Source: Auricularia sp. M13
Lineage: Eukaryota > Basidiomycota > Agaricomycetes > Auriculariales > Auriculariaceae
Length of the DNA: 64,000 nucleotides
Direction of reading: 5' to 3'
NCBI GenBank assembly: GCA_037042915.1
Contig: CM073198.1
Coordinates: forward strand, 62,001-126,000
The position numbers and the translations under genes are program-made. The notes beneath the pieces are model-generated. The model searched no databases. It was not told where the DNA came from and worked only from the letters and a program-made list of their open reading frames with translations. Shown here piece by piece: positions 1 to 61,168 of this stretch (the stretch's first letter is position 1; each line of letters starts with the position of its first letter).

Positions 1-2
1 AG

Positions 3-256
3 CCGGATTCAAGTCGTACGAGATGGAGGAGGACGTGACCAAGGACCTCGCCGAGTTCCAGCTCGCCAACGCCGTCTTTGCCGCCCTCGTCGAGAGCCAC
101 GCGGCCGAGCAGAGCTCGCGCCGCAACGCCATGGACAACGCGTCCAAGAACGCCGGCGACATGATCACCTCGCTTCAGATGCAGTACAACCGCGGTCGCC
201 AGGCCGCCATCACGAACGAGCTGGTCGACATTATCACTGGTGCCTCGGCGCTGTAG
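3..256 (+). pseudogene. ATP3: ATP synthase F1 gamma subunit, last exon (unit 0/1)
   Basis: The exon follows the AG acceptor at 1-2 and ends at the TAG at 254-256. It encodes the C-terminal helix of the mitochondrial F1 gamma subunit, the central rotor shaft of ATP synthase. The stretch [15 protein letters not shown] fits the conserved gamma-subunit C-terminal signature. The preceding exon lies outside the window. In the complete units the gene lacks its 5' part, so this copy is probably also a fragment, although the left end of the array could belong to a full-length gene beyond the window. Confidence 0.9.
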
Positions 257-533
257 ACGTCCTAGAACAAGTCGCCGCTGGCAATGGCAAAATCTGATTT
301 TATTGTGCTATCTGACGGTTCTGACATTTGCGTCTTGCCCCCATGATTGAGCACGACAGTCCGGTGAACAGACTACCATCAACTCGATATCTCCGCACCG
401 TGAGCACCATGCCAACATCTACTCAGTGCCACGAAATGGCTGCCGCCTTGCGCTGGGAATGGGTTTGCGACGAGTTACAGGCATTGGTGACCGATTCTCG
501 CGTTTTGAACTCCTGCAGGCCGGCTTGTTAATA
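257..533. other. ATP3 3' flank, no gene seen
   Basis: This is probable 3' untranslated and intergenic DNA between the ATP3 stop and the MITE. No conserved ORF or RNA was recognised. Equivalent stretches follow ATP3 in units 2-4. Confidence 0.6.
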
Positions 534-894
534 GGGGTATCACAGTGCTCGCAACAACTCGCAGCGCGAGATCGCAACGCAGCGAAAGCCTCAACGGTCT
601 CAACGGCGTGTTACAGCGTTGCGAGTCTGGGAGTTGCAACACCTTGCAACGCCCACTCGCAACGAAATTTGCAACACACTCAGCAAAGGATGATATTTCC
701 ATCATTCTCGCCGTCATCCGCCCACAAACCATGCGCTTTTGCATGTTTCTTGGTACTTTATAACGACGGAGTGCGCGGTGTTGGGAGTTATGTTGCGAGT
801 GCTATCGCAGCACTTACTCTTGGCAACCGGCGCTCGCAACATTGTCGTCGCAATATTTTGTTGTGAGCCTTTGCGAGCTCGTTGTGATACCCCC
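534..894. mobile_element. MITE, 361 bp, TA-flanked (unit 1)
   Basis: The ends are inverted repeats: GGGGTATCACA on the left and TGTGATACCCCC on the right. They extend imperfectly inward through a shared GCTCGCAA-like block. A TA dinucleotide abuts each end (532-533 and 895-896), as expected for a TA target-site duplication of the Tc1/mariner type. There is no transposase; the interior is rich in short TTGCGAG/CTCGCAAC repeats in both orientations. The element lies between ATP3 and PEX3 and was copied passively with the array. Assignment to Tc1/mariner rests only on the TA flank. Confidence 0.75.
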
Positions 895-1374
895 TAGACT
901 AGAGCGACCACAACGGCGGAACCTGCAGTCGCTACCGATTGCAGGTTTTCAATGTGCTGGGGCTGCCGCTGTCATCGCCCTGACAATCACGACTGTAGAA
1001 TGCAGGCACGCCTACAGTAAAGGCCTGCCTGAACTTTTGTGTCCCTGAGCTGGTCATGCTTCTTGTGATGCATCCTTTGTGCTGTTGGATGTATGCTGGA
1101 GTCCTGGATGTACCACATACTCTGCTTGCAGGCTGGCAAACAACCATAGTCGAGCAAGTGAGATGATTGCACAAGGCAATGAATTTCTCGTGTGATCCTG
1201 TCCTTGTGTGCTGGTATAGCAACTAATGAATGATTCCTTGCGAAACCCTGTCCAGGCGTTTCTCACTGTCTTTCAAACTGAAGAAAGGGTCAGATATTTC
1301 TGAGTTTGAGAATTGCACAACTTGAAGTACCGGTGCAAATAACGTGCAACATCACGTGAATTCCTCCTCTTCCC
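895..1374 (+). promoter_or_regulatory. PEX3 upstream region, type A
   Basis: This 480-bp stretch between the MITE and the PEX3 start holds no gene I recognise. A CACGTG E-box palindrome lies at 1353-1358, 16 bases before the start codon. No clear TATA box was seen. Only the last ~45 bases are retained in type B units. Equivalents precede PEX3 in units 2-4. Confidence 0.5.
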
Positions 1375-3061
1375 ATGTTCCCGTCAGTACGCAAATGCGT
1401 GTACGCTCGTCGGCGCGGGCTCGCGCTCACCGCTGGCGTTCTTGGCTCGGCATACCTGCTTGGCCGATATGTGGTCGCCAGGCTTGAAGAAATCCGCGAT
1501 AAAGTACTCCAGGACCGTGCGGCGCGTGACAAGTGCGGCGCTCAGCTCTAATTTATTCATTATAATTGCTAATAATTTGATGAATACTAGTCTTCGACGC
1601 CGGTTCGCAAAGAACCAGGAGGACGTCGCGTTCAGCGTGCTCGCGCTGCTGCAGCCGCTGGGCGCCGCGATTCTGGACGCCATGGACGTCGAGCGGCTCA
1701 CGGCCGACCTGCGCGCGCTGTCCGCGAGGCCGACGCCAGCCCCGGTCGACGACGATGCGCGGTCGACGGCGACGGACGATTCGGGCTCGGGTTCCCGGCT
1801 GGCAGAGAGCGCGAGCAGTTGGGTCGACCAGTTCTCGCAGTCGCAGCTGCAATCGACGGCCTCGCTCGAAATCCCGCAGCCTGGAACAAGCGCCGGCGCG
1901 CACGAGGACTCGCCGCGCAGCACGGACGCCAGCGCGAGCATGGCGAGCTCCATGCTGAGCGACACGACGTCCGAGGCCAGCGCCAGCTCCGGCGCAACGT
2001 CCAAGTCCAAGGCCGAGCTCTGGCGCGAGGTCAAGCTGCTCGCCTTCACGCGCACGCTCACCGTCGCCTACGCCGGCACGCTGCTCGCCCTGCTCGCCCA
2101 CACCCAGCTGTCCATCCTCGGCCGCCACAAGTACCTCGCCTCCGTGCGCGCGCTCGCACGCGAGAGCTCGCAGCGCGACGCGGCGCTGTTTGATGCTGCT
2201 GCGCTGTTCTCGGACTTTTCGCTACCCGGCCAGAGGGAGGACCGCGAGGACGACGGCGCGGAGGAGGAGGAGGAGGTCACGGATGAGTTGGAGCGCACGT
2301 ATTTGACGCTGAGTTGGTGGCTGCTCAATGAGGGCTGGCGCGAAGTTGCTAGCCGCGTGCAACGCGCGGTCGAGGACGTCTTTGAGCCGTGCGTGCGTTT
2401 CCCCATTGTAGTCTTTGCTGAGATTCTTGCAGAGTTTCGCTGAAAACGCAACTCTCGATCGACGACCTGTCGCAGCTCATCCAGTCCGTCCGCGCGCGCA
2501 TCCACATATCCGACAAGTACGCCGCTCCCCCATCCATTCCACAATCCACTCACCACCTTGCAGCTTCCTCCCCGCCCTCCTCCCCCCAACGCCCGCCCAG
2601 CTCGCCCGCGTCCTCCCACCAAGCACGACGGCGCCTTCGCCGCTCCTCGCCACGCTTCTGGACGAGACGCGGTCCCGCCTGCGCGGGCCCGACTTCGCGC
2701 TCGTCCTGCGCGCGGCGCTCGCGCGCGCCGACGCCGTGCTGCTCGCTGCGCTCGAGGACGATCTCTTCAAGCCCGAACCGCAACCGGAGCTGGAGTTGGA
2801 GGCCAGCTTTGGCCCGCGTATCCGCGAGATACCCACCAAGCGCGTGAGGCTGGCCGCGCTGTTGCCGGGTGTGGCGCGCTGGGCGCATGCCGCTGTTCAG
2901 GGCTATCCGAATGAGTTGGTGGATGTGAGTGCCTTCCCTTTTCCCGAGTGAGATGTGCGGCGAATGCTGATGCGTGCCGGATGCAGGGCGTCGCGCGGTT
3001 ACAAGAGGTCGAGGTGTTTGGCGTGATCGTGTACTCTGCATTCGATGAGGCGACCGATTGA
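1375..3061 (+). CDS. PEX3: Peroxin-3, peroxisome biogenesis membrane protein (copy 1)
   Basis: Five exons (1375-1532, 1591-2388, 2433-2516, 2564-2924, 2987-3061) join in frame into 491 residues, usual for fungal Pex3. Pex3 is the peroxisomal membrane anchor that docks Pex19 with its membrane-protein cargo. Residues 12-36 form a basic start followed by the hydrophobic membrane segment (ALTAGVLGSAYLLGRYVV). The family block NLRRRFAKNQEDV spans the first exon junction. Later come a serine-rich acidic linker, an SSWVDQFS motif, a conserved helical core (WREVKLLAFTRTLTVAY) and VSLKTQLSIDDLSQLIQSV across intron 2. The start was chosen because it gives the N-terminal anchor; it has CCC before the ATG. 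Introns are 44-62 nt. The frame is intact, so this copy could be functional. Confidence 0.95.
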
Positions 3062-3240
3062 TTGGCAGACGCGACGTGCGGCACTTGCAATTCCCGCGGA
3101 CACGAACGAGGGAGCCCGTTGCGCAAGATCGTTTCGACTTTTTTTTAGACCTTTCAATGCACGAGTTCAGCGGGTCCAAGAGAGGATGATGTAGGTGGAA
3201 ATCTTATCGCCATGTTCGTTGCTCACTCTCGAACAGAATA

Positions 3241-5008
3241 TCAACGGCGCGACAGGCAATGTCGCGCTGTCGCACACGCCGCCAACTCGCGATCGGAAAC
3301 AGCACGCCGCTCGCGACCAAGCTGGTTGCCATCGAGGATCGCGACAGCGACGCCAGTGTCGCTGTACGCTGTCAGTTCCGGATTTCGACGCATTCCTCGA
3401 TGCCAACACATTCCACGATCGGCTTGACGCCCAGTATGTACAACTTCGCGACAGCGGCAAAGAGACCCACTCACCCGATCTGCAGCGTGCGTCTCTCTTG
3501 GCGTGCGGCAGCTGTTTGACGCGCTCGTGGTCGCCAACTTGAAAATCTGCTCGAACGGCAGAATTCTGTCATGGTGAGCACGCAGAGTCACGGCGACAGA
3601 ATGATGTACTCACTTCATGTTCTTCGCAGTTCGTGCGTTCGGACAATGCCCGAGTTCGCTGCGGGATTGCGCGCGCTCGACTTCAGCCTATGGAGCGGAT
3701 GGACAACATACGCGAAGCAGACGATCGCGCGCGCGTCAAGCGCTGCAAAGAACGTGAGTTATTCATTCCATCGAATTGCGTCCTAAGAAATTACTCACGA
3801 TTCATTAACAGTCTCCGCGTCCGTCAGGCGGTATGGGCGGATTCCGATCTGGCATAACGTTACGAACGGTAATGCGAAACGCAAGAGCTGCGCACGCCGA
3901 CTCGGACGACGGCGCGCCTTCTGCTATGCGCGCGATAACGGCTACCGTCCGTGGCGAAGGATGCGGCGGCGTTCCTGCAACGAGTCAGCCTTACGAACGG
4001 TCATACGGACGACAACACGCACTTGGACGCCGACTCGGACAACGGCGCGCCTCCTGCTGCGCCCCATGGAGGACGTGGCTCGCAAGCCCTTGAGCCCGTC
4101 GACCCCATCGCGCTCGACGCTTTCCAGGACGCCAACGGGCTGGAGGCAGTGTGAGTGATTGAACGAACTGCGCGCTAGAAAAACCACTTACGGTGTTTTG
4201 CAGCATTTCTTCCCCATTTTACTGTCGATCGGCGTGAGCGGCGCCATTCCGCGGCGTTGATACACGCAGCGGTGCGTTCGGGGCTAGGGTGAAATGTGAG
4301 CGTTCGGTCAGACAAGCACGCGGAGCAAAAGACTGACCTCGACTGGCAGGATTTGCAGTCTTCCGAGCCAGACATGTGCGCGCGCCATCCAATCGCGCAG
4401 GCTGGATGCAAAAACGCGAGCGTTCGATCGAGGTCAGTAAATGTACCAGAAGCGCGGGCGTGCGTTACTCACCGGTTCCGTCAGAGTTTCTGCCTATCGA
4501 ACGTTGCCAATGCGCCCACGAGCCTCGGGGCATACAGGACGGCGTCGGGGCGAGCTGCACGATGCGCGGGCGGATGCGCGTTCGTCGGGAGGCTGAAACG
4601 AGGGTGAGTAGTCGCCCGATCGAACTGCGCCATGTAACGCTCACATTATTGGCAGCATTTCATTTTCCACGGCGCTGTCCAGCGGTGTACGGGCGACGAA
4701 TGCGTCCGATCGGTCCTGCTCGCAGATCAGGATGCGGTCTTGGAACGCGGGGGACGGGGGTACTCACGGGCGGCTACGAGCTGGCAGAATGGACTGTAAT
4801 CGTAGTATCAGCGTCGTTAACGCGACGCGCAGCGAAGGCGATGTACATACGCACCGCGAAATAGACGTCCGTTTTGCTGCCAACGACGAGCGTGATCATT
4901 TGAGCATCGCCGCTGACGAGCACAACCGCTGACGAGCAACACAAGCACGAGCAGCACATGCTCGAGCATGGCGTGCAACGGCGAGCACACGCGCATGCGC
5001 ATGGACAT
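3241..5008 (-). pseudogene. Gene X, unknown multi-exon gene (unit 1)
   Basis: I do not recognise this gene. On the minus strand a TATA box (5107-5113) precedes about twelve short exons separated by 47-71-nt introns, such as 4793-4854, 4716-4767, 4593-4644, 4402-4472, 4284-4337, 4140-4191, 3975-4022, 3849-3895 and 3743-3798. Donors are mostly GTGAGT/GTAAGT/GTCAGT and branch-like CTCAC/CTGAC precedes the acceptors. Phases of the exons between 4715 and 3799 fit together, giving protein-like blocks (DAVLYAPRLVGALATFDRQK, LRDWMARAHVWLGRLQILPV, IGIRPYRLTDAETVNE). In-frame stops occur in the exons at 4768-4793 and 4473-4592. The exons at 4645-4715 and 4192-4283 are paralogous (TPLDSAVENE and TPIDSKMGKK), and those at 4023-4139 and 3896-3974 are also related. 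It is most likely decayed, or non-coding with conserved splice signals. Confidence 0.5.
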
Positions 5009-5106
5009 CGGTCGCGCGGTACACAGTGAGCGAGGCGGGAGGGAAGAGAGGTCGAGGAAGAGGAAGAAGGGGCGGACACTGGTGGATGACCCAGATTCTG
5101 TACGCC

Positions 5107-5113
5107 TTTTATA
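5107..5113 (-). promoter_or_regulatory. TATA box of gene X (unit 1)
   Basis: GGTATAAAAGG reads on the minus strand about 100 bases before the first ATG (5008) and is followed by a pyrimidine-rich leader. Both types of unit conserve it. Confidence 0.6.
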
Positions 5114-6984
5114 CCCCTGCACCCCCCCAGCGCGGCGGCCGTCTCGCAATCAATGCACAGCCAAGGCTTACTGAGCCCAGACGTACGAAGTGAGTTTGGC
5201 GAGAGAAGGGGGTGGAAGGAACGGCGCGGCTGTTGGATTCAGATCGGCCTTCGCCTCCTCACCCCGCCGCCGCGCAACGAATTTCTCGCCCGCGCGAGCA
5301 CCTCACCCCCTCCCTCTTTCAAATAGGCGCCCGTGGTGGTTGAGAGACCAGCCCTCAGCCATTAGGCGCCCGTCAGAGGGGGGTGTGGGCCCGCAAAATG
5401 GGAGACACCTGGAGGTCCCAGGACCTCTCTGCACGGCCTCCCGGCGCACAAACGCACGCGATACGCTTCCATCAGGCGTGATTGATGTCTTTGAAACGCC
5501 TGATGAGCGAAAGAATTGGGGGGAAACCGCAGAATCGTTCGGTTTCTGCGCGTACTCGCCACCGCCGACTCGCTTCCACCGCCCCAGGACTCGTTTCAAT
5601 TCGATCGACTGAGTCATTGCTGCGTTAGATACTCCGCTAGAGCTGTCTTGGCCAATGCACGAGGCCGGCGCAGGTCGGGATCGTTCTCACGCGAGACGTT
5701 TCTCCTCGCCTTCCGCCGATTCAACATGATTCAGAGCCTTCGCTTCGACTATTCCAACCCGTGCACGGCACGTCATGTTCCAAGACAGCATTACGGCGCT
5801 CATTGGCTGTGACGTCGTGCATGCGCATGATGTACCGTTCAGGGAACTCGCTCGTCCGATTGTAACGCCTGCTCGATTCTGACTGCCCGCTGTATTTCGG
5901 AATCGCGGTGTATGCTACGCTCGATACCCCGCTGAGATTAACAATATGATCAGCTTACAAGAGTCTTTCTGAGAGTTTCACGCCTAAATCAGCCTATTTG
6001 GCCCATTTTATATGCAGATCTAGTGCGTGGCAAAGTGCGCTTTGCGTACTTTCGCACTGTCTAATACCAAAGAACCGTTTGCTCGATACACACGTATAGA
6101 CCGATAGTATCAATGAGCTATAGAGCCTGCAATGTACCACATATCTCACTGTTGTTGCGGGTGTATGCACGCAGTCCTCGCGGAAGGTGCGCAAAGCGCA
6201 CCTTCTGGCAGTTCCTCACACACTTTCAAAGTTCCACTACATTCTTTGATCCCAGGATAACACTGGCACGTAGTTGCATTTCTGGGACTAATCACAGTGA
6301 TATATAAGATTCAAGGATGTGTTGAACTCTTTCGTGATATCGTCGACCTGATGTCCAGCTCGAATCCAAGTAGGATTCTTCGGTTCATTGATGCACCCGC
6401 GAGCGCATGAAGCGCGTCACCTGAGATCCTATGAACAGGTCTCATTCCTCGTGCGCGATTGCACGTCTGGCAGTCTGTAACGCTGCTCAGACGTACATGC
6501 TTCGCTGAGGGTTCGACTGTCGAGCTCCCAGTCCGAGGATTCAGTCCCATCTGCGATCTCCTCGGCTCTACGAATGCGCTCCCGTCGACCCCAGGCCTTG
6601 CAACAACTTCCCACAAACTATCCATGCTGGTTTTGTTTGCAAACACTCACGAGACAGCTTTGCAGCAAACCTGGCTGGTTTGCATTGCATTCAACGGCGG
6701 ATCGACGAGCGCAAGCGCCCGTCTGAGCCGAATTTGCTATGCTGCGGCCGTTCCTGCAGCTGTGCTGTAAGTTATGCTTATCGCGCAGGGCCCGCATAAC
6801 ACTCAGTTGCGTAATTCTATGCTTGGAGTCGGAGCGCGAAGCGGCGACTCGTGAACAGCCGGGATCACGAGGATCTGCAGAAGCGCGCTGGGAGCGGAAC
6901 TCCGGCGAGGCGCGGATTGGACCGAAAAACTCTTGAACCCCGACGGTCATGGTTCCACATCGCGCACAGCAGCATTTGCTGCTC
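5114..6984. other. 1.9-kb stretch without recognisable gene (unit 1)
   Basis: No ORF here is conserved in frame between type A and B. I see small palindromes: CATCAGGCGT/ACGCCTGATG arms at 5470-5479 and 5496-5505, CGCAGAA/TTCTGCG arms at 5528-5534 and 5544-5550, and a 21-bp near-perfect palindrome at 6184-6204 (AAGGTGCGC arms). There is also an ATTGG box (5812-5816) next to a TGACGTC site (5820-5826) and an AT-rich ATATATAAG near 6300. The same stretch recurs in units 2-6. Confidence 0.5.
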
Positions 6985-7046
6985 ATTTATACAGCCCACC
7001 CAGCGGGCCTCTCTTGTTCTCGATCACCCATTCCCCCGCTGTCGCC

Positions 7047-8330
7047 ATGCTGCAACCGCGTCCGTTGTTGACACTGGCGTTGCGCGTCTCGACGACGGCA
7101 CTCTTTCCCCCTCCCCGCCGCTCTTGCTTTCCGTGGCCTGAGTAGGTCCGCATTCGCTGTTTTGCTGTTCCAGGGCCATTGCTGACGGCCAATCCCTCTG
7201 AACAGTACTCGGCCGCGGTTACTCTGAAGGCGTGCAGATATTGCCGGCGTCGACGCTGTCATTGTGAGGCCGTGAGTCCATTTTTCTCTTCTCAGTCTCT
7301 TCATCCGGCTCACGCATGATGCTACTGCGCGCAGAATCGCATGCATCTGATCGCGAGGAACATCGCGCGGCATTGCCAGCGCGCTCGCGTGCGTGACGAC
7401 ACACCTCTGGAACGCCATCATCGTTCTAGGCACTGAGCTGGTGAGTCCCTGTTCTAATCTCTCCGGCATCTTACGTCGTTGACGACCTTTCCACTCAGGA
7501 ATCGCATGCATCTGATCGCGAGGAACGTCGCGCGCCGACGGCGGCGAGCCCGCTTCCATCCGTCGTCTGCGACGACGCGCCGTCATTGTGCTCGGCGTAT
7601 GAGTTGGTGTGTGCATGCTCACAGTTCTCAGTTTTCCGCACATTGCTGACGCGCATGTCTTTTCGCAGAATGAATCGCATGCATCTGGTCGCGAGGAACA
7701 TCGCATGCCAACGCCGCCGGACCCGCTTCGACCGTCGTTGCCAACAACGTATCGCACAGCGTATGAGCTGGTGAGTTTCTGCTCGAGATTCTCAGCCCGC
7801 TCTTCGTCGCTGACGCGCACGGCTGTCCGCGCAGCGAATCGCATGCATCTGATCGCGAGGAACATCACGCGCCGACGCCGGCGGGCTCGCTTCCGTCGTC
7901 GTCGCAGACGACGCTCCAGTGTGTGTGCAGGTGAGTTTCTGTTCAGAATGCTCAGTCCTCTTCCTTGTCACTGACGCGCAACGCTGTCTGCGCAGTGAAT
8001 CGCTTGAATCTGCTCGCGCGGAATGTCACTCGCACAGCAGGCACGCTCTGTTAGAACGCTGCCATCGCGCGCGGCGTGAGTTGGTGAGTCCCCTCTTGCA
8101 ATGTTCATCTCTTCACGTTGCTGACGCGCACGCTTTTCCGTGCAGGGAATCGCTCGAATCTGCTCGCGAGGCACTGCATGCACCGACGCCCGAAGCAGAC
8201 CCGCTGCCGTCGCGCGCGCGACGGACGAGTCGGTGAGTCCTCGTGCTGCACCTCTCATCACCAGCAGCTGACGCGCCGGTCGTTCCGCGTAGAAAATGGC
8301 TTGAATCTGGTCGCGAGGAAGCGCAGCGGC
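7047..8330 (+). other. Gene Y, ladder of duplicated exon-intron modules (unit 1)
   Basis: I do not recognise a product. After a first exon at 7047 (hydrophobic start MLQPRPLLTLALRVSTTALF) and a second exon, seven related exons follow: 7335-7440, 7499-7606, 7669-7770, 7835-7930, 7996-8083, 8146-8232 and one from 8293. Nearly every intron starts GTGAGT, most carry CTGACGCG about 25 bases before the acceptor, and most end in GCAG. Exons begin with the same block, read as ESHASDREEH in one frame and NRMHLIARN in another. Module starts are 147-170 bp apart. The second and third modules keep an open frame ending in AYEL, but phases do not fit across the whole ladder. It is therefore a decayed gene or a spliced non-coding transcript built by tandem exon duplication. 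Confidence 0.55.
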
Positions 8331-8333
8331 GGC

Positions 8334-8520
8334 GAGCAGAGATTCGCCATGCGGGGATGCCGCAGACGGGCGACGCGCACTCCAGCATTGTCACCGACCA
8401 CGCCGACATCGCGCACGTCGGGAACGCGCATCCCGTCGCTCCGCCCGCCGCGCGAGGTCTCCCCAACGCTGTTCCGCGCGTCGCCCGTCTGCGGCATCCC
8501 CGCATGGCGAATCTCTGCTC
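8334..8520. repeat. 45-bp perfect inverted repeat, 97-bp spacer (unit 1)
   Basis: The left arm 8334-8378 is the exact reverse complement of the right arm 8476-8520. The right arm has a counterpart in type B (around 40410-40460). The left arm does not: it replaces about 330 bp of type B sequence, including the last Y module. Confidence 0.95.
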
Positions 8521-8642
8521 CCCGCGGCACGGTCATCCAACAGTTCTCCCCGCGTCGGTCGCCCGGACCTCCGCTCGCATCCATCCGTTCATCTTGTCAC
8601 TCCCTCTCACCCCACTCCCATCTTGGTTCGCCATCCGAGTCC

Positions 8643-8813
8643 TGCAATGCGTGCGCCATCGACCTCGCCATTTTCATTCCGCCCGCCGGGGCGTTCCCAC
8701 GTGTTCCGCCCGCGGCGGGTTGCATCACCGAGCTCCTCTCCATCGCCCTTGCCACCGCCACACTCGTTCTCGTCAATTTCCCGACAACACTCCTGCTCGA
8801 TCATGTACATTAG
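8643..8813 (+). pseudogene. Possible relic of a Pmp3-like small membrane protein (unit 1)
   Basis: This reading frame runs through CAIDLAIFIPPAGAF, then GCITELLSIALATATLVLVN, to a TAG. The order hydrophobic helix, PPAG, Gly-Cys, second hydrophobic helix resembles the Pmp3/UPF0057 family of tiny stress-related plasma membrane proteins. The match to the family signature is imperfect, and the usual C-terminal PG..HA.Y block is absent. In type B (near 40564-40731) the two halves lie in different frames. No in-frame start codon is near. The other type A copies are at 19132-19302 and 29618-29788. The resemblance may be chance. Confidence 0.25.
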
Positions 8814-8926
8814 TTCAGAGCAATGGAATAGACTGCTTTTCTTAGCAAATGTGTTTGAACCGCTGAGCATCCTGAGAATGTGTTGATTCCCGCAGTCTGT
8901 ATGCGCATATGTTTGAGCTGTGAGGC

Positions 8927-9329
8927 GAAGCGAGGAAGCGGTGATGGGCGTTTAACATGCGAGGAAATCGACTTGTGCACTGTCACGCATCCGCGGCATG
9001 AGCTCTGAGTCGGCCAGAATGTGTGTCCTGACGCTGAGAGCGCCTGAGATTCGCGGTCAAGCAGCACATCGAGTTCCTCGACGCTCAGTATGCATCAGCG
9101 GCAAAAATAACGTGCTGAGTCAAGCTTCTATGTGAAGTGAGGAAGCGGTGATGGGCGTTTAACATGCGAGGAAATCGACTTGTGCACTGTCACGCATCCG
9201 CGGCATGAGCTCTGAGACTGCGAGAATGTGTGTGTTGACGCTGAGAGGGCATGGGAGCAACACAGCGAGTTCCACGACGTTCAGTATGCATCAGCGGCGA
9301 AAATAACGTGCTGAGTCAAGCTTCTATGT
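8927..9329. repeat. Two tandem ~200-bp repeats (unit 1)
   Basis: Copies at 8927-9133 and 9134-9329 each begin GAAG(C/T)GAGGAAGCGGTGAT and share the CGCATCCGCGGCATGAG and AACGTGCTGAGTCAAG blocks. Type B has one copy (from about 40847). No gene was seen here or on to 9764. Confidence 0.9.
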
Positions 9330-9764
9330 GAAGCGAGGAAGTGTGATCGGGGAACGAACGAGATTGTGCCCAGGTCGCCAGTGTCTTTGCCAATGCGGAG
9401 ACCAATCACCTAAGCCAGAGCTCGCATTGTTCGCATTTCTACAGCTATTAAACGGCGCGCAAGCATTGAGCAGGAATAAAAAAATGCAAGGAAGCGCGAA
9501 ATCATGAATGCGCGCCTCGGAGAAGTCGGGAAGTACTGATGCGAGTCAGAATATCCGAGGAGGGCAGTGTGCCGGGCTGAGAGTCGTGAGGCAGAGGCCC
9601 AAAGCAAAAATACCATATGAGCGGCCTCTGAGCCCTAAGTACAAATCAGTAGCACGCCCATAACGCAGGAACAGCCTGTATTTCAGCGGGAACGGGGACG
9701 GCGGCGCGGACGGCTGACACGCAGATAGCCGGAGTGCTGACGCACCGCCAAGCCCGGCGCAGGG

Positions 9765-9771
9765 TATAAAA
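9765..9771 (+). promoter_or_regulatory. TATA promoter at unit right end (unit 1)
   Basis: GGGTATAAAAGAC is followed by a pyrimidine-rich stretch typical of a fungal start region. A strong hairpin (TTCTGCC/GGGCAGAA arms around a TTCG turn) lies near 9904-9930. In type A this promoter faces the truncated ATP3 copy of the next unit. No start codon opening a credible protein follows, so the gene it originally served is unknown. Confidence 0.6.
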
Positions 9772-10006
9772 GACGAGGGGAGAGGGAGCGAGAGGCCAGC
9801 AGACCTTTCCCTCCTGTCGTGTCGCTGTCACTTTGCCCCTCGGTGGCGTCGTCGACGATCCGTTCGTCATCGTCGTCGTGCTATTTTTGTACATAGTCTC
9901 CTTGTTCTGCCTGGCCTTCGGGCGGGCAGAACCTCTGCCAATTTGAATCAACCCCTAAGGTCATTATGATACCTATCAGAAAATGCTGAACGTCCATTTT
10001 CTGGCA

Positions 10007-10744
10007 GAAGAGGACTTCGCGACAAACGCAACGGCGGCGAGGCGGGCAAGCGGCGGCTCTTCGTCGTCATCTCCTCCGACCGCGGGCTCTGCGGCGGTAT
10101 CCACTCGTCCGTCTCCAAGGCGACCCGCCGCGCGCTGGGTGTCAGCAAGCCCAACCCCGACGAGAAGCTGCCCGCCGCCGACCCCGACAGCCCCGTCATG
10201 GTCGTCGGCGACAAGAGCAAGGCCCAGCTCTCGCGTGCCGTCCCCAAGAACATCGTCCAGACCTTCAACCAGATTGGCAAGGACGTCCCCACCTTTGCCG
10301 ACGCCTGCGCCGTCGCAGACCTCATTACCACCTCCGGCGTCGAGTACGACAGCATCGTCATTGTGCACAACAGGTTTGTTTCTGCGCTCAGCTACGAGCC
10401 GACCTTCGTTGAGGTCCTCAACGCCAAGGCTCTGTCAGAGTCGTGTACGTGCCATAAATTTCCTATCGATCATATCCTCATGCTCTACAGCCGGATTCAA
10501 GTCGTACGAGATGGAGGAGGACGTGACCAAGGACCTCGCCGAGTTCCAGCTCGCCAACGCCGTCTTTGCCGCCCTCGTCGAGAGCCACGCGGCCGAGCAG
10601 AGCTCGCGCCGCAACGCCATGGACAACGCGTCCAAGAACGCCGGCGACATGATCACCTCGCTTCAGATGCAGTACAACCGCGGTCGCCAGGCCGCCATCA
10701 CGAACGAGCTGGTCGACATTATCACTGGTGCCTCGGCGCTGTAG
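10007..10744 (+). pseudogene. ATP3: ATP synthase F1 gamma subunit, 5'-truncated copy (unit 2)
   Basis: Two exons (10007-10444 and 10491-10744) flank a 46-nt intron starting GTACGT and ending CTACAG. Together they encode about 229 residues in frame. The read begins just before [16 protein letters not shown], which contains the DRGLCGG motif of gamma subunits, and ends with the [15 protein letters not shown] signature. The N-terminal helix, the mitochondrial presequence and roughly the first 70-100 residues are absent from the 1 kb upstream. Just before the first exon lies a plausible intron end (TGCTGAAC, then TTCTGGCAG), so the duplication may have cut within or just before an ATP3 intron. 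The reading frame is undamaged, implying recent truncation. A working product is unlikely without the N-terminal coiled coil. Confidence 0.9.
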
Positions 10745-11021
10745 ACGTCCTAGAACAAGTCGCCGCTGGCAATGGCAAAATCTGATTTTATTGTGCTATC
10801 TGACGGTTCTGACATTTGCGTCTTGCCCCCATGATTGAGCACGACAGTCCGGTGAACAGACTACCATCAACTCGATATCTCCGCACCGTGAGCACCATGC
10901 CAACATCTACTCAGTGCCACGAAATGGCTGCCGCCTTGCGCTGGGAATGGGTTTGCGACGAGTTACAGGCATTGGTGACCGATTCTCGCGTTTTGAACTC
11001 CTGCAGGCCGGCTTGTTAATA

Positions 11022-45646: not shown

Positions 45647-45653
45647 TTTTATA
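45647..45653 (-). promoter_or_regulatory. TATA box of gene X (unit 5)
   Basis: Type B copy with the motif unchanged. Confidence 0.6.
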
Positions 45654-50411: not shown

Positions 50412-50683
50412 GACGAGGGGAGCGAGAGAGCAGTCTACCCAAGTCTCCCTCCTGTCGTGTCGCTGTCACTCTGCCCCTCGGAGTCGGTGGCGTCGTCGAC
50501 GATCCGTTCGTCGTCGTGCTATTTTTGTACATAGTACTTCTGCCTGGCCTTCGGGCGGGCAGAACCTCTGCCAGTTTGAATCAACCCCTAAGGTCATTAT
50601 GATACCTATCAAAAACTGCTGAACGTCCATTTTCTGGCAACTTGCAAACAACATGCAACATCACGTGAATTCCTCCTCTTCCC

Positions 50684-52378
50684 ATGTTCCCGTCAGTACG
50701 CAAATGCGTGTACGCTCGTCGGCGCGGGCTCGCGCTCACCGCTGGCGTTCTTGGCTCAGCATACCTGCTTGGCCGATATGTGGTCGCCAGGCTTGAAGAA
50801 ATCCGCGATAAAGTGCTCCAGGACCGTGCGGCGCGTGACAAGTGCGGCGCTCAGCTCTAATTTATTCATTATAATTGCTAATAATTTAATGAATACTAGT
50901 CTTCGACGCCGGTTCGCAAAGAACCAGGAGGACGTCGCGTTCAGCGTGCTCGCGCTGCTGCAGCCGCTGGGCGCCGCGATTCTGGACGCCATGGACGTCG
51001 AGCGGCTCACGGCCGACCTGCGCGCGCTGTCCGCGAGGCCGACGCCAGCCCCGGTCGACGACGATGCGCGGTCGACGGCGACGGACGATTCGGGCTCGGG
51101 TTCCAGGCTGGCAGAGAGCGCGAGCAGCTGGGTCGACCAGTTCTCGCAGTCGCAGCTGCAATCGACGGCCTCGCTCGAAATCCCGCAGCCTGGAACAAGC
51201 GCCGGCGCGCACGAGGATTCGCCGCGCAGCACGGACGCCAGCGCGAGCATGGCGAGCTCCATGCTGAGCGACACGACGTCCGAGGCCAGCGCCAGCTCCG
51301 GCGCAACGTCCAAGTCCAAGGCCGAGCTCTGGCGCGAGGTCAAGCTGCTCGCCTTCACGCGCACGCTCACCGTCGCCTACGCCGGCACGCTGCTCGCCCT
51401 GCTCGCCCACACCCAGCTGTCCATCCTCGGCCGCCACAAGTACCTCGCCTCCGTGCGCGCGCTCGCACGCGAGAGCTCGCAGCGCGACGCGGCGCTGTTT
51501 GATGCTGCTGCGCTGTTCTCGGACTTTTCGCTACCCGGCCAGAGGGAGGACCGCGAGGACGACGGCGAGGATGAGGAGGAGGAGGTCACGGATGAGTTGG
51601 AGCGCACGTATTTGACGCTGAGTTGGTGGCTGCTCAATGAGGGCTGGCGCGAAGTTGCTAGCCGCGTTCAGCGCGCGGTCGAGGACGTCTTTGAGCCGTA
51701 CGTGCGTCTCCCCAATCTATACATTGCTCACCATCCCGCAGAGTTTCGTTGAAAACGCAACTTTCGATCGACGACCTGTCGCAACTCATCCAGTCCGTCC
51801 GCGCGCGCATTCACATATCCGACAAGTACGCCGCTCCCCATCCATTCCAGAAACCACTCACCACCTTGCAGCTTCCTCCCCGCCCTCCTTCCCCCAACGC
51901 CCGCCCAACTTGCCCGCGTCCTCCCACCAAGCACGACCGCGCCCTCGCCGCTCCTCGCGACGCTCCTGGACGAAACGCGGTCCCGCCTGCGCGGGTCCGA
52001 CTTCGCGCTCGTTCTGCGCGCGGCGCTCGCGCGCGCCGACGCCGTGCTGCTCGCCGCTCTCGAGGACGACCTCTTCAAGCCTGACCCGCTGCCGCAGGAC
52101 GCGGATTTGGAGCTGGCCGCCAGCTTTGGGCCGCGCATTCGCGAAATACCCACCAAGCGCGTGAGGCTGGCCGCGCTGTTGCCGGGTGTGGCGCGCTGGG
52201 CGCATGCCGCTGTGCAGGGCTATCCGAATGAGTTAGTGTATGTGAGTGCCTTCCCTTTTCCCGAGTGAGATGTGCGGCGAATGCTGATGCGTGCCGGATG
52301 CAGGGCGTCGCGCGGTTACACGAGGTCGAGGTGTTTGGCGCGATCGTGTACTCTGCATTCGATGAGGCGATCGATTGA
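50684..52378 (+). CDS. PEX3: Peroxin-3 (copy 6, type B)
   Basis: The exons are 50684-50841, 50900-51697, 51742-51825, 51872-52241 and 52304-52378, encoding 494 residues. I saw no difference from copy 5. It shares the TATA promoter (50405) and the out-of-frame upstream ATG (50653). Confidence 0.95.
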
Positions 52379-52557
52379 TTGGCAGACGCGACGTGCGGCA
52401 CTTGCAATTCCCGCGGACACGAACGAGGGAGCCCGTTGCGCAAGATCGTTTCGACTTTTTTTTAGACCTTTCAATGCACGAGTTCAGCGGGTCCAAGAGA
52501 TGATGATGTAGGTGGAAATCTTATCGCCATGTTCGTTGCTCACTCTCGAACAGAATA

Positions 52558-54476
52558 TCAACGGCGCGACAGGCAATGTCGCGCTGTCGCACACGCCGCC
52601 AACTCGCGATCGGAAACTGCACGCCGCTCGCGACCAAGCTGGTTGCCATCGAGGATCGCGACAGCGACGGCAGTGTCGCCGTACGCTGTCAGTTACGGAT
52701 TTCGACGCATTCCTCGCCACCAACACATTCCACGATCGGCAAAACGCCCAGTATGTACAACTTCGCGACAGCGGCAAAGAGACCCACTCACCCGATCTGC
52801 AGCGTGTGTCTCTCTTGGCCTGCAACAGGCCTTTCGCGCGCTCGTGGTCGCCAACTTGAATCTGCCCGAACGGCAAAATTTTGTATCGGTGAGCACGTAG
52901 AGTCACGGCAATTGATTGTTGAACTCACTTCCTATCCTTCGCGCTCAGTGCGGTCGAAAAATGCCCGAATTCGCCGCGGGATCGCGCGCGCGCGCTTGAC
53001 CTGAGCCTATGGAGCGGATGGACAATATACGCGAAGCAGACGATCGCGCGCGCGCCAAGCGCTGCAAAGAACGTGAGTTATTCATTCCAACGAATTGCGT
53101 CCTAAGAAATTACTCACGATTCGTCAACAGTCTCCGCGTCCGTCAGGCGGTATGGGCGGATTCCGATCTGGCACAACGTTACGAACGGTAATGCGAAACG
53201 CAAGAGCTGCGCACGCCGACTCGGACGACGGCGCGCCTTCTGCTATGCGCGCGATAACGGCCACCGTCCGTGGCGAAGGATGCGGCGGCGTTCCTGCAAC
53301 GAGTCAGCCTTACGAACGGTAATACGGACGACAACACGCACTTGGACGCCGACTCGGACGACGGCGCGCCTCCTGCTGAGCGCGCGCGCAATAAAGGCGT
53401 CGTACATGCTGCCGTCCACCATGACGCAGGCCGAGCCGTTTTCTTCCTTTGGTCAACCTTACGAACGGTAATACGAATGGCAACACTCACCTGCACGCTA
53501 ACGCGGACGACGACGCACCTCCTGGTGCGCACGATGGAGAACGTGGCTCGCAATCCCTTGAGCCCGTCGACCCCATCGCCCTCGACGCTGTCCAGGATAG
53601 CGGGCTGGAGCCAATGTGAGTGATTGAACAAACTGCGCGCTAGAAAAAACACTCACGGTGTTTTGCAGCATTTCTTCCCCATCTTACTGTCGATCGGCGT
53701 GCGCGGCGCCATTCCGCGGCGTTGATACACGCAGCGGTGCGTTCGGGGCTAGGGTGAAATGTGAGCGTTCGGTCAGACAAGCACGCGGAGCAAAAGACTG
53801 ACCTCGATTGGCAGGATTTACAGTCTTCCGAGCCAGACATGTGCGCGCGCCATCCAATCGCGCCGGCTGGATGCAAAAAAACGCGAGCGTTCGATCGAGG
53901 TCAGTAAATGTACCAGAAGCGTGGGCGTGCGTTACTCACGGGTTCCGGGAGAGTTTCTGCCTATCGAACGTCGCCAACGCGCGCCCACGAGCCTCGGAGC
54001 ATACAGGACGGCGTCGGGGCGCGCTGCACGATACGCGGGCGGATGCGCGTTCGCCAGGAGGCTGAAACGAGCGTGAGTAGTCGCCCGATCGAACTGCGCC
54101 ATGTAACGCTCACATTATTGGCAGCATTTCATTTTCCACGGCGCTGTCCAGCGGTGTACGGGCGACGAATGCGTCCGATCGGTCCTGCTCGCAGATCAGG
54201 ATGCGGTCGTGGAACGCGGGGGACGGGGTACTCACGGGCGGCTACGAGCTGGCAGAATGGACTGTAATCGTAGTATCAGCGTCGTTAACGCGACGCGCAG
54301 CGAAGGCGATGTACATACGCACCGCGAAATAGACGTCCGTTTTGCTGCCAACGACGAGCGTGATCATTTGAGCATCGCCGCTGACGAGCACAATCGCTGA
54401 CGAGCAACACAAGCACGAGCAGCACATGCTCGAGCATCGCGTGCAACGGCGAGCACACGCGCAGGCGCATAGACAT
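52558..54476 (-). pseudogene. Gene X (unit 6), type B
   Basis: This copy matches unit 5 in the stretches compared, including the three central modules. Confidence 0.5.
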
Positions 54477-54574
54477 CGGTCGCGCGGCACACAGCGAGCG
54501 GGGCGGGAGGGAAGAGAGGTCGAGGAAGAGGAAGAAGGGGCGGACACTGGTGGATGACCCAGATGCTGAACGCC

Positions 54575-54581
54575 TTTTATA
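54575..54581 (-). promoter_or_regulatory. TATA box of gene X (unit 6)
   Basis: Type B copy with the motif unchanged. Confidence 0.6.
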
Positions 54582-56511
54582 CCCCTGCACCCCACCAGCG
54601 CGGCGGCCGTCTCGCAATCAATGCACAGCCCAGGCTTACGGAGCCCAGACGTACGAAGTGAGTTTGGCGAGAGAAGGGGGTGGAAGGAACGGCGCGGCTG
54701 TTGGATTCAGATCGGCCTTCGCCTCCTCACCCCGCCGCCGCGCAACGAATTTCTCGCCCGCGCGAGCACCTCACCCCCTCCCTCTTTCAAATAGGCGCCC
54801 GTGGTGGTTGAGAGACCAGCCCTCAGCCATTAGGCGCCCGTCAGAGGGGGGTGTGGGCCCGCAAAATGGGAGACACCTGGAGGTCCCAGGACCTCTCTGC
54901 ACGGCCTTCCGGCGCACAAACGCACGCGATACGCTTCCATCAGGCGTGATTGATGTCTTTGAAACGCCTGATGAGCGAAAGAATTGAGGGGAAACCGCAG
55001 AATCGTTCGGTTTCTGCGCGTACTCGCCACCGCCGACTCGCTTCCACCGCCCCAGGACTCGTTTCAATTCGATCGACTGAGTCATTGCTGCGTTAGATAC
55101 GCCGCAAGAGCTGTCTAGAACAAGGCACTAAGCCGGCGCAGGTCGGGATCGTTCTCACGCGAGACGTTTCTCCTCGCCTTCCGCCGATTCAACATGATTC
55201 AGAGCCTTCGCTTCGACTATCCCAGCCCGTGCACGTCACGTCATGTTCCAAGACAGCATTACGGCGCTCATTGGCTGTGACGTCGTGCATGCGCATGATG
55301 TACCGTTCAGGGAACTCGCTCGTCCGATCGTAATGTCTGCTCGATTCTGACTGCCCGCTGTATTTCGGAATCGCGGTGTATGCTACGCTGGATACCCCGC
55401 TGAGATTAGCAGTATGATCAGCTTACAAGAGTCTTAATGAGCGTTTCCGTGTACATCAGCGGATTTGGCCCATTTTGCATGCAGATCTCGTGCGTGGCAA
55501 AGTGCGCTTTGCGTACTTTCGCACTCTCTAATGCCAAAGAACCGTTTGCTCGATATACACGTATACGCCAATAGTATCAATGGGCTATAGAGCCTGCGAT
55601 GTAGCACATATCTCACTTTCGTTGCGGATGTATGTACGCGGTGCTCGCGGAAGGTGCGCAAAGCGCACCTTCTGGCAGTTCCTCACATACCTTCCACTAC
55701 ATTCTTTGATCCCGCGATAATACTGGCACGTAGTTGCGTTTCTGGGATTAATCACAGTGATATATAAGATTTGAGCATCTGTGAAACTCTGAATCTTTCC
55801 TGATATCGTCGACCTGATGTCCAGCTCGAATCCAAGTAGGATTCTTCGGTTCATTGATGCACCCGCGAGCGCATGAAGCGCGTCACCTGAGATCCTATGA
55901 ACAGATCTCATTCCTCGTGCGCAATTGCACGTCTGGCAGTCTGGAACGCTGTTCAGACGTACATGCTTCGCTGAGGGTTCGACTGTCGAGCTCCGAGTCG
56001 AGGATTCAGCCCCATCTGCGCTCTCCCCGGCTCTCCAAATGCGCTCTCGTCGACCCCAGGCCTTACAACCAGTTCCCACGAGCTCTTCATGTTGATTTTG
56101 TTTGCAAACACTCACGAGACAGCTTTGCAGCAAACCTGGCTGGTTTGCATTGCATTCAACGGCGGATCGACGAGCGCAAGCGCCCGTCTGAGCCGAATTT
56201 GCTATGCTGCGGCCGTTCCTGCAGCTGTGCTGTAAGTTATGCTTATCGCGCAGGGCCCGCATAACACTCAGTTGCGTAATTCTATGCTTGGAGTCGGAGC
56301 GCGAAGCGGCGACTCGTGAACAGCCGGGATCACGAGGATCTGCAGAAGCGCGCTGGGAGCGGAACTCCGGCGAGGCGCGGATTGGACCGAAAAACTCTTG
56401 AACCCCGACGGTCATGGTCACACATCGCGCACAGCAGCATTTGCTGCTCATTTATACAGCCCACCCAGCGGGGCTCTCTTGTTCTCGATCACCCATTCCC
56501 CCGCTGTCGCC

Positions 56512-57988
56512 ATGCTGCAACGGCGTCCGTTGTTGGCACTGGCGTTGCGCGTCTCGACGACGGCACTCTTTCCCTGCCCGCCGCTCTTGCTTTCCGTGGC
56601 CTGCGTAGGTTCGCATTCGCTATTTTGCTGTTCCAGGGCCATTGCTGACGGCCAATCCCTCTGAACAGTACTCGGCCGCGGTTACTCTGAAGGCGTGCAG
56701 ATATTGCCGGCGTCGACGCTGTCATTGTGAGCCCGTGAGTCCATTTTTCTCTTCTCAGTCTCCTCATCCGGCTCACGCATGATGCTACTGCGCGCAGAAT
56801 CGCATGCATCTGATCGCGAGGAACATCGCGCGGCATTGCCAGCGCGCTCGCGTGCGTGACGACACACCTCTGGAACGCCATCATCGTTCTAGGCACCGAG
56901 CTGGTGAGTCCCTGTTCTAATCTCTCCGGCCTCTTACGTCGTTGACGACCTTTCCACTCAGGAATCGCATGCATCTGATCGCGAGGAACATCGCGCGCCG
57001 ACGGCGGCGAGCCCGCTTCCATCGTCGTCTGCGACGACGCGCCGTCATTTGCTCGGCGTATGAGTTGGTGTGTGCATGCTCACAGTTCTCAGTTTTCCGC
57101 ACATTGCTGACGCGCATGTCTTTTCGCAGAATGAATCGCATGCATCTGGTCGCGAGGAACATCGCATGCCAACGCCGCCGGACCCGCTTCGACCATCGTT
57201 GCCAACAACGTATCGCACAGCGTATGAGCTGGTGAGTTTTTGCTCGAAAGTCTCAGCCCTCTCTTCGTCGCTGACGGGCACGGCTGTCCGCGCAGCGAAT
57301 CGCATGCATTTGATCGCGAGGAACATCACGCGCCGACGCCGGCGGGCTCGCTTTCATCGTCATCGCAGACGACGCTCCGCCATTGTTCCCAGTGTGTGTG
57401 CAGGTGAGTTTCTGTTCAGAATGCTCAGTCCTCTTCCTCATCACTGACGCGCAACGCTGTCCGCGCAGGGAATCGCTTGAATCTGCTCGCGCGGAATGTC
57501 ACTCGCAGCCTCGTACAGCAGGCATGCTGTCATCGCGCGCGGCGTGGGTCGGTGAGTCCCCTGTTGCAATTCTCATCTCTCCACGTTGCTGACGCGCAAG
57601 CTTTTCCGCGCAGGGAATCGCTTGAATCCGCTCGCGAGGCACTGCATGCACCGACGCCCGAAGCAGACCCGCTGCCGTCGCGCGCGCGACGGACGAGTCG
57701 GTGAGTCCTCGTGCTACACCTCTCATCACCAGCAGCTGACGCGCCCGTCGTTCCGCGTAGAAAATGGCTTGAATCTGGTCGCAAGGAACATCGCGCGCCG
57801 AGTCTCACCTAGCCCGTGCTCTCATCGCGCGCGCCGGGCCGTTATCATCGCGCGCGGCGTGATTTGGTGAGTCTCTGCACTTCGCAGTCCTTTCTCAGCG
57901 TCTGACGCGCATGCCATTCCGCGCAGGGATTCGCTTGAATCTGCACGCGGGGAACATCACGCGCCGGCGCCATGTCGAGAACACACTG
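56512..57988 (+). other. Gene Y module ladder (unit 6, type B)
   Basis: Same as unit 5 except for one C fewer in the second module exon, which opens the NRMHLIARN frame through to AYEL in this copy. Confidence 0.55.
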
Positions 57989-59331
57989 GTGAGTTTCGTT
58001 CAGGTTTCATTCGTTGAGCTTGTCGCTGAAACGCCGCGTCGCAGATACAGGCGTCGCGCCCTCCATTCTCGACGACGCTCCCGGCGACGAGCTAATTAGT
58101 TTTGTGTCGCCGCGCTGATGACATATGTGCTTTGCAGCGCGCGCCAACGCGTATCCAGCGCATTTCAACACCGTCACCGACCACGCCGAGATCGCGCACG
58201 TCGGGAACGCGCATCCCGTCGATCCGCCCGCCGCGCGAGGTCTCCTCAACGCTGTTCCGCGTCTCGCCCGTCTGCAGCATCTCCGGCGGGCATGGCGAAT
58301 CTCTGCTCGCCGCCGCTGCGCTTTCTGGTGCACGGTCTTCCCGCGTCGGCTGGCGGCGATCCGTTCATCTTTCTCCCTCCCTCTCACCCCACTCCCATCT
58401 TCGTTCGCCATCCGAGTCCTGCAATGCGTGCGCCATCGACCTCGCCATTTTCATTCCGCCCGCCGGGGCGTTCCCACGTGTTCCGCCTGCGGTTGCATCA
58501 CCGAACTCCTCTCCATCGCCCTTGCCATCGCCGCACTCGTTCTCGTCAATTTCCCGACAACACTCCTGCTCAATCATGTACATTAGTTCAGAGCAATGGA
58601 ATAGACTGTTTTTCTTAACGAATGCGTCTGAACCGCTGAGCATCCTGAGAATGTGTTGATTCCCGCAGACTGTATGCGCATATGTTTGAGCTGTGAGATG
58701 AAGCGAGGAAGCGGTGATGGGCGTTTAACACATGGGAAAATGGGTGTGCGCACTCTCACGCATCCGCGGGATGAGCTCTGAGTCGGCCAGAATGTGTGTC
58801 CTGACGCTGAGAGCGCATGGGAGCAGCACATCGAGTTTCTCGACGGTCAGTATGCATCAGCGGCGAAAATAACGTGCTGAGTCAAGCTTCTATGTGAAGC
58901 GAGGAAGTGTGATCGGGGAACGAACGAGATTGCGCCCAGGTCGCCAATGTCTTTGCCAATGCGGAGACCATTCCCCTAAGCCAGAGCTCGCATTTTTCGC
59001 ATTTCTGAGGCTAGTAAACGGCGTGCAAGCAAGTCAGCAGGAGAATACAGTGCAAGGAAATTAACGCGCGCCTCGGAGAAGTCGGGAAGTACTGATGCGA
59101 GTCAGAATATCCGAGGAGGGCAGTGTGCCGGGCTGAGAGTCCTGAGCCAGAGACCCAAAGCAAAAAGACCATATGAGCGGATTCTGAGCCCCAACTACAA
59201 TCCAGTAGCACGCGCATAGCGCAGGAGCAGCCTGTATTTCCAGCGGGAACGGGGACGGCGGCGCGGACGGCCGGAGTGGGCTGACACGCAGATAGCCGGA
59301 GTGCTGACGCACTGCCAAGCCCGGCGCAGGG

Positions 59332-59338
59332 TATAAAA
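59332..59338 (+). promoter_or_regulatory. TATA promoter now upstream of PEX3 copy 7
   Basis: Same type B arrangement, 273 bp before the PEX3 ATG at 59611. Confidence 0.6.
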
Positions 59339-59566
59339 GACGAGGGGAGCGAGAGAGCAGTCTACCCAAGTCTCCCTCCTGTCGTGTCGCTGTCACTCTG
59401 CCCCTCGGAGTCGGTGGCGTCGTCGACGATCCGTTCGTCGTCGTGCTATTTTTGTACATAGTACTTCTGCCTGGCCTTCGGGCGGGCAGAACCTCTGCCA
59501 GTTTGAATCAACCCCTAAGGTCATTATGATACCTATCAAAAACTGCTGAACGTCCATTTTCTGGCA

Positions 59567-61168
59567 ACTTGCAAACAACATGCAACATCACGTGAATTCC
59601 TCCTCTTCCCATGTTCCCGTCAGTACGCAAATGCGTGTACGCTCGTCGGCGCGGGCTCGCGCTCACCGCTGGCGTTCTTGGCTCAGCATACCTGCTTGGC
59701 CGATATGTGGTCGCCAGGCTTGAAGAAATCCGCGATAAAGTGCTCCAGGACCGTGCGGCGCGTGACAAGTGCGGCGCTCAGCTCTAATTTATTCATTATA
59801 ATTGCTAATAATTTAATGAATACTAGTCTTCGACGCCGGTTCGCAAAGAACCAGGAGGACGTCGCGTTCAGCGTGCTCGCGCTGCTGCAGCCGCTGGGCG
59901 CCGCGATTCTGGACGCCATGGACGTCGAGCGGCTCACGGCCGACCTGCGCGCGCTGTCCGCGAGGCCGACGCCAGCCCCGGTCGACGACGATGCGCGGTC
60001 GACGGCGACGGACGATTCGGGCTCGGGTTCCAGGCTGGCAGAGAGCGCGAGCAGCTGGGTCGACCAGTTCTCGCAGTCGCAGCTGCAATCGACGGCCTCG
60101 CTCGAAATCCCGCAGCCTGGAACAAGCGCCGGCGCGCACGAGGATTCGCCGCGCAGCACGGACGCCAGCGCGAGCATGGCGAGCTCCATGCTGAGCGACA
60201 CGACGTCCGAGGCCAGCGCCAGCTCCGGCGCAACGTCCAAGTCCAAGGCCGAGCTCTGGCGCGAGGTCAAGCTGCTCGCCTTCACGCGCACGCTCACCGT
60301 CGCCTACGCCGGCACGCTGCTCGCCCTGCTCGCCCACACCCAGCTGTCCATCCTCGGCCGCCACAAGTACCTCGCCTCCGTGCGCGCGCTCGCACGCGAG
60401 AGCTCGCAGCGCGACGCGGCGCTGTTTGATGCTGCTGCGCTGTTCTCGGACTTTTCGCTACCCGGCCAGAGGGAGGACCGCGAGGACGACGGCGAGGATG
60501 AGGAGGAGGAGGTCACGGATGAGTTGGAGCGCACGTATTTGACGCTGAGTTGGTGGCTGCTCAATGAGGGCTGGCGCGAAGTTGCTAGCCGCGTTCAGCG
60601 CGCGGTCGAGGACGTCTTTGAGCCGTACGTGCGTCTCCCCAATCTATACATTGCTCACCATCCCGCAGAGTTTCGTTGAAAACGCAACTTTCGATCGACG
60701 ACCTGTCGCAACTCATCCAGTCCGTCCGCGCGCGCATTCACATATCCGACAAGTACGCCGCTCCCCATCCATTCCAGAAACCACTCACCACCTTGCAGCT
60801 TCCTCCCCGCCCTCCTTCCCCCAACGCCCGCCCAGCTCGCCCGCGTCCTCCCACCAAGCACGACGGCGCCTTCGCCGCTCCTCGCCACGCTTCTGGACGA
60901 GACGCGGTCCCGCCTGCGCGGGCCCGACTTCGCGCTCGTCCTGCGCGCGGCGCTCGCGCGCGCCGACGCCGTGCTGCTCGCCGCTCTCGAGGACGACCTC
61001 TTCAAGCCTGACCCGCTGCCGCAGGACGCGGATTTGGAGCTGGCCGCCAGCTTTGGGCCGCGCATTCGCGAAATACCCACTAAGCGCGTGAGGCTGGCCG
61101 CGCTGCTGCCGGGTGTGGCGCGCTGGGCGCATGCCGCTGTGCAGGGCTATCCGAATGAGTTGGTTGAC
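59567..61168 (+). repeat. Array unit 7, truncated, PEX3 only
   Basis: The unit is type B at its start and carries a short type A-like tract inside PEX3 exon 4. It stops matching the other units at the exon 4/intron 4 boundary. Confidence 0.9.

Follow-up and report, generated by a model that had tools for sequence, protein, structure and literature searches.

How could PEX3, a core peroxisome biogenesis gene, come to stand in a long row of repeats on one fungal chromosome? We addressed this in a stretch of 64,000 nucleotides from Auricularia sp. M13 (contig CM073198.1, positions 62,001 to 126,000; hereafter the window), for which an original prediction had proposed a seven-fold amplification of a PEX3-bearing segment. 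The array was confirmed as a sequence feature: self-alignment of the window placed it head to tail from position 1 to ~61,190, with seven copies of PEX3, and together with the gene models bore out the claim of one PEX3 per unit. The wording 'seven-fold' is right as to the copies, but the units are of two types, A and B, which stand about 4% apart, and it also hides that an ATP3 gene is truncated, that the region upstream of PEX3 is altered in B and that the last copy has a 3' end of old lineage. Most likely, this is a tandem gene array of a known type, born through an illegitimate joint and extended by unequal exchange, and its main surprise is the gene involved together with the relict PEX3 lineage at the border.

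Self-comparison gave a direct-repeat period of ~10,489 base pairs (bp) from 1 to ~35,500, and of ~8,928 bp from ~35,300 to 61,190. When the window was aligned to itself, 1-25038 matched 10489-35528 over 25,047 columns with 7 mismatches and 11 gap openings, and 32800-52356 matched 41715-61298 over 19,596 columns. We anchored the unit starts at the PEX3 upstream boundary (1334, 11823, 22311, 32800, 41715, 50643 and 59570), which divides the array into three units of type A (10,488-10,489 bp), a single hybrid that passes from A to B, two units of type B (8,927-8,928 bp) and, at the right border, a last PEX3. Seven PEX3 copies are a minimum, because the window opens inside a further A unit, with the 3' end of its ATP3 fragment at 1-256. 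At the other end, the repeats are closely similar up to ~61,190, and a diverged PEX3 terminal exon reaches 61,329. The units, all on the forward strand, are as follows.

1..1333, forward: partial A unit at the window edge, with the 3' end of an ATP3 fragment (to 256) and the ATP3-PEX3 intergenic region
1334..11822, forward: U1, type A, 10,489 bp, with PEX3, spacer, ATP3 fragment and intergenic region
11823..22310, forward: U2, type A, 10,488 bp, no substitutions relative to U1
22311..32799, forward: U3, type A, 10,489 bp, no substitutions relative to U1 and U2
32800..41714, forward: U4, hybrid, A to 35237 and B from 35270
41715..50642, forward: U5, type B, 8,928 bp, with no ATP3 fragment and almost none of the intergenic region
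50643..59569, forward: U6, type B, 8,927 bp, no substitutions relative to U5
59570..61329, forward: U7, right-border PEX3, followed by unrelated flank

The PEX3 gene model has five exons separated by GT/AG introns of 44-77 bp, and with it five of the seven copies (U1, U2, U5, U6 and U7) yielded complete spliced frames, the number originally proposed. U3 and U4 are frameshifted, possibly through errors in the consensus. The short introns, together with the C-termini of PEX3, would suit an agaricomycete-like fungus. All three spliced proteins submitted to Pfam (U2, U5 and U7) matched Peroxin-3 (PF04882) at profile positions 3-457 of 458, and the U2 protein also matched solved PEX3 chains by sequence, the best being 9i5r (E 2.3e-28). 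When relatives were sought with peptide patterns drawn from exon 2 (269 amino acids, aa), 42 matches in viral_contigs and 384 in genome_contigs came up, none of them confirmed; these virus and prokaryote collections are not meant for fungi. The copies are listed below.

1375..3061, forward: PEX3 copy 1, complete, 491 aa (five-exon model)
11864..13549, forward: PEX3 copy 2, complete, 491 aa (five-exon model, Pfam match)
22352..24037, forward: PEX3 copy 3, exon 4 frameshift through a change in C-run length
32841..34529, forward: PEX3 copy 4, exon 4 frameshift through length changes in a CT/C-rich stretch also hit in copy 3
41756..43450, forward: PEX3 copy 5, complete, 494 aa (five-exon model, Pfam match)
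50684..52378, forward: PEX3 copy 6, complete, 494 aa (five-exon model)
59611..61329, forward: PEX3 copy 7, complete, 497 aa, with a differing C-terminus (five-exon model, Pfam match)

What joins one unit to the next differs between the two types. Downstream of PEX3 lies a spacer of 6.9 kilobases (kb), which in A runs into the middle of ATP3 and in B runs directly to the next PEX3.

3062..10006, no strand: type A spacer, no intact gene found
9998..10008, no strand: A joint, from the spacer end ...CTGGCA to an ATP3 exon, repeated at ~20495 and ~30984
10007..10744, forward: 5'-truncated ATP3 (ATP synthase gamma), whose other copies end at 256, 21233 and 31722
59558..59568, no strand: B joint, where the spacer end of the A joint meets the sequence ~45 bp ahead of the PEX3 ATG; also at ~41711 and ~50639

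The ATP3 fragment covers the ATP synthase gamma profile from 69 to 285 of 285 (from 72 when a hand-cut peptide is used), and its best solved match, 5fl7 chain G, begins at residue 86. The N-terminal gamma part that marks a functional ATP3 is missing, with no match to roughly the first 68 of the 285 profile positions in six frames of the whole A unit. From the ATP3 stop to the next PEX3 ATG, A units have ~1.1 kb, a stretch with no above-cut-off Pfam match in six frames. The three A and three B joints all depart from the spacer at one base, within 2 bp. Comparing the B joint with A suggests 2 bp of shared sequence (CA), with the unrearranged parent sequences lying outside the window. The shared joint base possibly arose through a deletion in an A unit that began at the old joint, or through recurrent breakage at this site. 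A perfect hairpin with 9-bp arms immediately precedes the A joint; it is strong in A (z -2.29) and absent in B (z 0.27), and we rejected it as the cause of the shared joint since it is strong in A only. The spacer end also contains a TATAAAAG box (six instances), which in B lies ~280 bp upstream of the PEX3 ATG and is a predicted promoter element.

A comparison of the two unit types across PEX3 and the greater part of the spacer (U2 11823-18800 with U5) gave 301 substitutions in 6,954 columns. This divergence is patchy, with a dispersion of 4.82 compared with at most 1.63 in 2,000 random placements, and a longest identical run of 349 compared with at most 305, a pattern typical of gene conversion. 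Within PEX3, nonsynonymous divergence (dN) is 0.0107 and synonymous divergence (dS) is 0.0922 (dN/dS ~0.12), the latter being 0.029 in codons 1-318 and 0.255 in codons 319-465 (Fisher p 2e-8). The low dN/dS would speak for constraint on both PEX3 lineages. The change from one type to the other takes place in register, inside U4.

The right border carries a further record of exchange. U7 equals U5 exactly over 59570-60834, is A-like at 9 of 9 informative sites in 60835-60940, and is B-like at 17 of 17 in 60982-61141. Its labels at the 58 sites that precede 61160 form 3 runs, whereas 5,000 shuffles never gave fewer than 8; this count excludes four later sites, which read A, A, A, B. The last intron and terminal exon (61246-61329) are unlike both A and B. 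We first computed terminal-exon dS on the last 26 aligned codons and, the tail alignment being doubtful, redid it with the 20 gap-free codons; it was still near or beyond saturation, with 10 of 14.5 synonymous sites differing from A and 11 of 14.5 from B, compared with 0 of 15 between A and B over the same short stretch. Beyond the exon, the right flank is unrelated to the spacer, with no matches longer than 23 bases seen. This mosaic and terminal exon therefore point to a meeting of at least two old PEX3 lineages, with most of the border copy homogenised by the array. The U7 border would not arise from a simple tandem duplication of a single native segment.

Within each type, by comparison, the units are nearly indistinguishable. 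The pairs U1-U2, U1-U3 and U2-U3 showed no substitutions in 10,487, 10,485 and 10,485 matched columns, and their 3, 6 and 5 differences are lengths of single-base runs plus one AGC repeat (in U3). The B parts likewise had none in 8,926 (U5-U6), 6,443 (U4-U5) and 6,442 columns (U4-U6), with 3, 5 and 6 gap columns, respectively. Between the A part of U4 and U1, 6 mismatches were counted, all at 34038-34050, which, read by eye, probably reflect a displaced alignment where a triplet has been gained and a C run is shorter; a T run differs as well. The repeats are either very young, or actively homogenised, or copies made by the assembler, three cases that the window alone does not separate, and the true copy number is the main doubt.

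The origin that we consider probable, with some reserve, resembles that of the yeast CUP1 array: an illegitimate joint inside a neighbouring gene, followed by unequal homologous exchange and gene conversion. The array would have started in an ATP3-PEX3 neighbourhood, where a break-and-join without long homology tied the spacer end to the middle of ATP3, leaving a repeat unit with PEX3 as the sole complete gene recognised. A second joint, from the same spacer end to ~45 bp upstream of PEX3, would have given rise to the shorter B unit, and each type would then have grown in number and been made uniform through unequal homologous exchange and gene conversion. The A array and the B array may later have been united via a crossover in U4, and at the right edge an array PEX3 may have undergone recombination with an older, diverged PEX3 that is still represented in U7 by its 3' end and flank. 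The order of these events is presumed from the sequence as it stands. Of the three causes named in the original prediction, a resident duplication growing by unequal exchange fits best, because of the in-register switch from A to B, the mosaic tracts and the homogeneity within types.

Several points weigh against this origin. The native left border and the unrearranged locus lie outside the window and offer no comparison, random breaks do not explain why one spacer end serves both joints, and the low A-B dN/dS may predate the amplification and stem from an allele stage. In addition, the assembly of a dikaryon could have passed from one haplotype to the other at the U4 switch, an assembler loop would also yield perfect identity within types, and the differences that do occur there are slippage-type length changes, which resemble consensus noise. 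A rival view is that the array is an artefact or an inflation: reads from one or two genuine units, which might be the A and B haplotypes of a dikaryon, would have been strung together into a long array. We judge this unlikely, albeit serious enough to be kept in mind: zero substitutions within types, with length differences confined to single-base runs and short repeats, are what it would leave behind, as is a single A-to-B switch, in a unit (U4) that has small private length changes. However, re-walking one unit could not generate two unit types, two joints and three PEX3 3' ends (A, B and U7), and the alternating B and A tracts of U7, ~100-160 bp each, are fine-grained for a read-level chimera. 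Moreover, the spacer-to-PEX3 order in both types implies at least some genuine head-to-tail adjacency, unless the units came from a circle.

The position of the right border, inside PEX3, makes a circular source itself a candidate: a circle or concatemer carrying PEX3 could have reintegrated into a resident PEX3 by homologous recombination, creating a hybrid PEX3 at each border. Exons 1-4 of U7 are indeed mostly array-like, its terminal exon belongs to another lineage and its flank is unrelated; yet an array converting an old neighbouring PEX3 copy gives an identical right border, and two unit types require two circles or a later change, so that we hold this route to be improbable. We give still less credence, close to none, to a mobile element that owns the spacer and carried or amplified PEX3, a reading that would account for the common spacer end of the two joints. 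Both exit at CTGGCA, within 2 bp, and a TATA-containing stretch lies upstream of this end. Six unspliced frames of the whole A unit contained no mobile-element Pfam domain (transposase, integrase) at E <=0.1, the sub-cut-off matches being CcmD and TEX13 alone, and the A spacer contained no other curated-level Pfam domain; the scan covered the A version of the spacer, and the extra bases of the B version fall outside it. On both strands of the A spacer, no spliced gene-like frame scored >=6, with a script of modest power that did detect one frame in the right flank (9.9 versus 7.8). No end-to-end or unit-long terminal repeats were present among the matches listed, which comprise 20 of 34 direct families and 25 of 38 inverted pairs.

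An array born by a joint and extended by unequal exchange has a close parallel in CUP1 of S. cerevisiae, for which the available part of one study describes five unit types with clustered breakpoints and joints that share <=3 bp (PMC4232551). According to the same portion of that study, the end of a CUP1 unit falls in RSC30, in CIC1 or between genes, and no unit has an intact CIC1 or RSC30; 9 of 66 multicopy strains carry an array of mixed type; and the units measure 1.2-2.0 kb, diverge by 0.5% and form arrays that lengthen under copper selection (PMC4232551). As far as that account goes, the two arrays are alike in their head-to-tail units of several types, clustered breakpoints, mixing of types and growth by unequal exchange, and in units that end inside a neighbouring gene, leaving a 3' fragment (RSC30 there, ATP3 here). 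The window displays several of the traits that mark a CUP1-like array, namely at least three head-to-tail copies of an intact gene, a truncated neighbour at the joint, and homogenised units with signs of exchange. It departs from CUP1, as described there, in its units of 8.9-10.5 kb and its patchy types ~4% apart, and further in that the gene is a peroxisome biogenesis factor and the last copy is partly of older lineage. The concerted evolution of ribosomal DNA is similar in its within-type identity and conversion-like mosaics, whereas the units here are protein-coding, few in number and of two persistent types.

Is the array there for the sake of Pex3? Selection on PEX3 is plausible because no other complete gene was recognised in the unit, and selection for its dosage would be possible. 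A stronger proposal, that the array is a selected dosage device in which copy number and promoter both changed to raise Pex3 and thereby peroxisome number or behaviour, we regard as speculative and rather unlikely. It builds on the reading that only PEX3 is amplified intact, and that B units swapped the native upstream region for the TATA-containing spacer end. Against it, the accessible part of a study of engineered yeast reports high-copy amplification without selection on the amplified locus, although those strains, as presented there, are laboratory mutants whose chromosomes are rearranged in complex ways and which carry as many as 880 copies per cell (PMC4856073). By title and abstract starts, no report of a PEX3 array was found in the open-licence PubMed Central literature, and no report there of a dosage benefit from PEX3 amplification was found. 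In its available part, a survey of PEX proteins treats PEX3 as one group and notes no duplication (PMC8172628), and the corresponding part of a study of the basidiomycete yeast Phaffia mentions PEX3 only as upregulated, alongside 222 copy-number-variable genes that are unnamed there (PMC8978057). The yeast CUP1, ENA and HXT6-HXT7 loci are described, in the portion available, as multicopy recombining arrays (PMC4856073). If our reading is true, a core peroxisome biogenesis gene would join such loci, providing a natural test of how important Pex3 dosage is, and a worked example of how an array is born, one that shows two types of unit, clustering of the joint and, at the border, a relict lineage.

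Several further observations concern the spacer and the flank. Over 3200-4300, the spacer holds several intron-like GT...AG stretches of ~50 bp, and by eye the nearby A/B indels are not multiples of three; this is perhaps a decayed gene, and the gene-model scan found none there. In the B spacer, a weak 93-aa frame on the minus strand (49439-49717) scored 9.1, whereas the highest score in 20 block shuffles was 4.8. The frame found in the right flank (61646-62198, minus strand) is gene-like, with two exons and 163 aa, and the unspliced frames there have no Pfam match. An earlier version of the script, trained on PEX3 and ATP3 codons, did not pick up this flank frame; all that it returned was PEX3, ATP3 and frames lying antisense to PEX3. 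There was no clear sign of decay or silencing resembling repeat-induced point mutation (A-spacer CpG observed/expected 1.28; 245 transitions and 185 transversions between A and B), and neither structured RNA (at Rfam gathering scores) nor transfer RNA (ARAGORN, bacterial code) was detected. A minisatellite of ~165 bp with splice-site-like borders occupies 7335-8320 and the corresponding place in each unit, its pattern matching 7 times each in U1-U3, 8 times each in U4-U6 and 0 times in U7. Finally, the ATP3-PEX3 intergenic regions of A, and these only, contain a 362-bp element resembling a miniature inverted-repeat transposable element (11022-11383), which lies between TA dinucleotides and has 12-bp perfect terminal inverted repeats (GGGGGTATCACA); its other copies lie at 534-894, from 21511 and from 32000, and in these three the 5' end is one G shorter.

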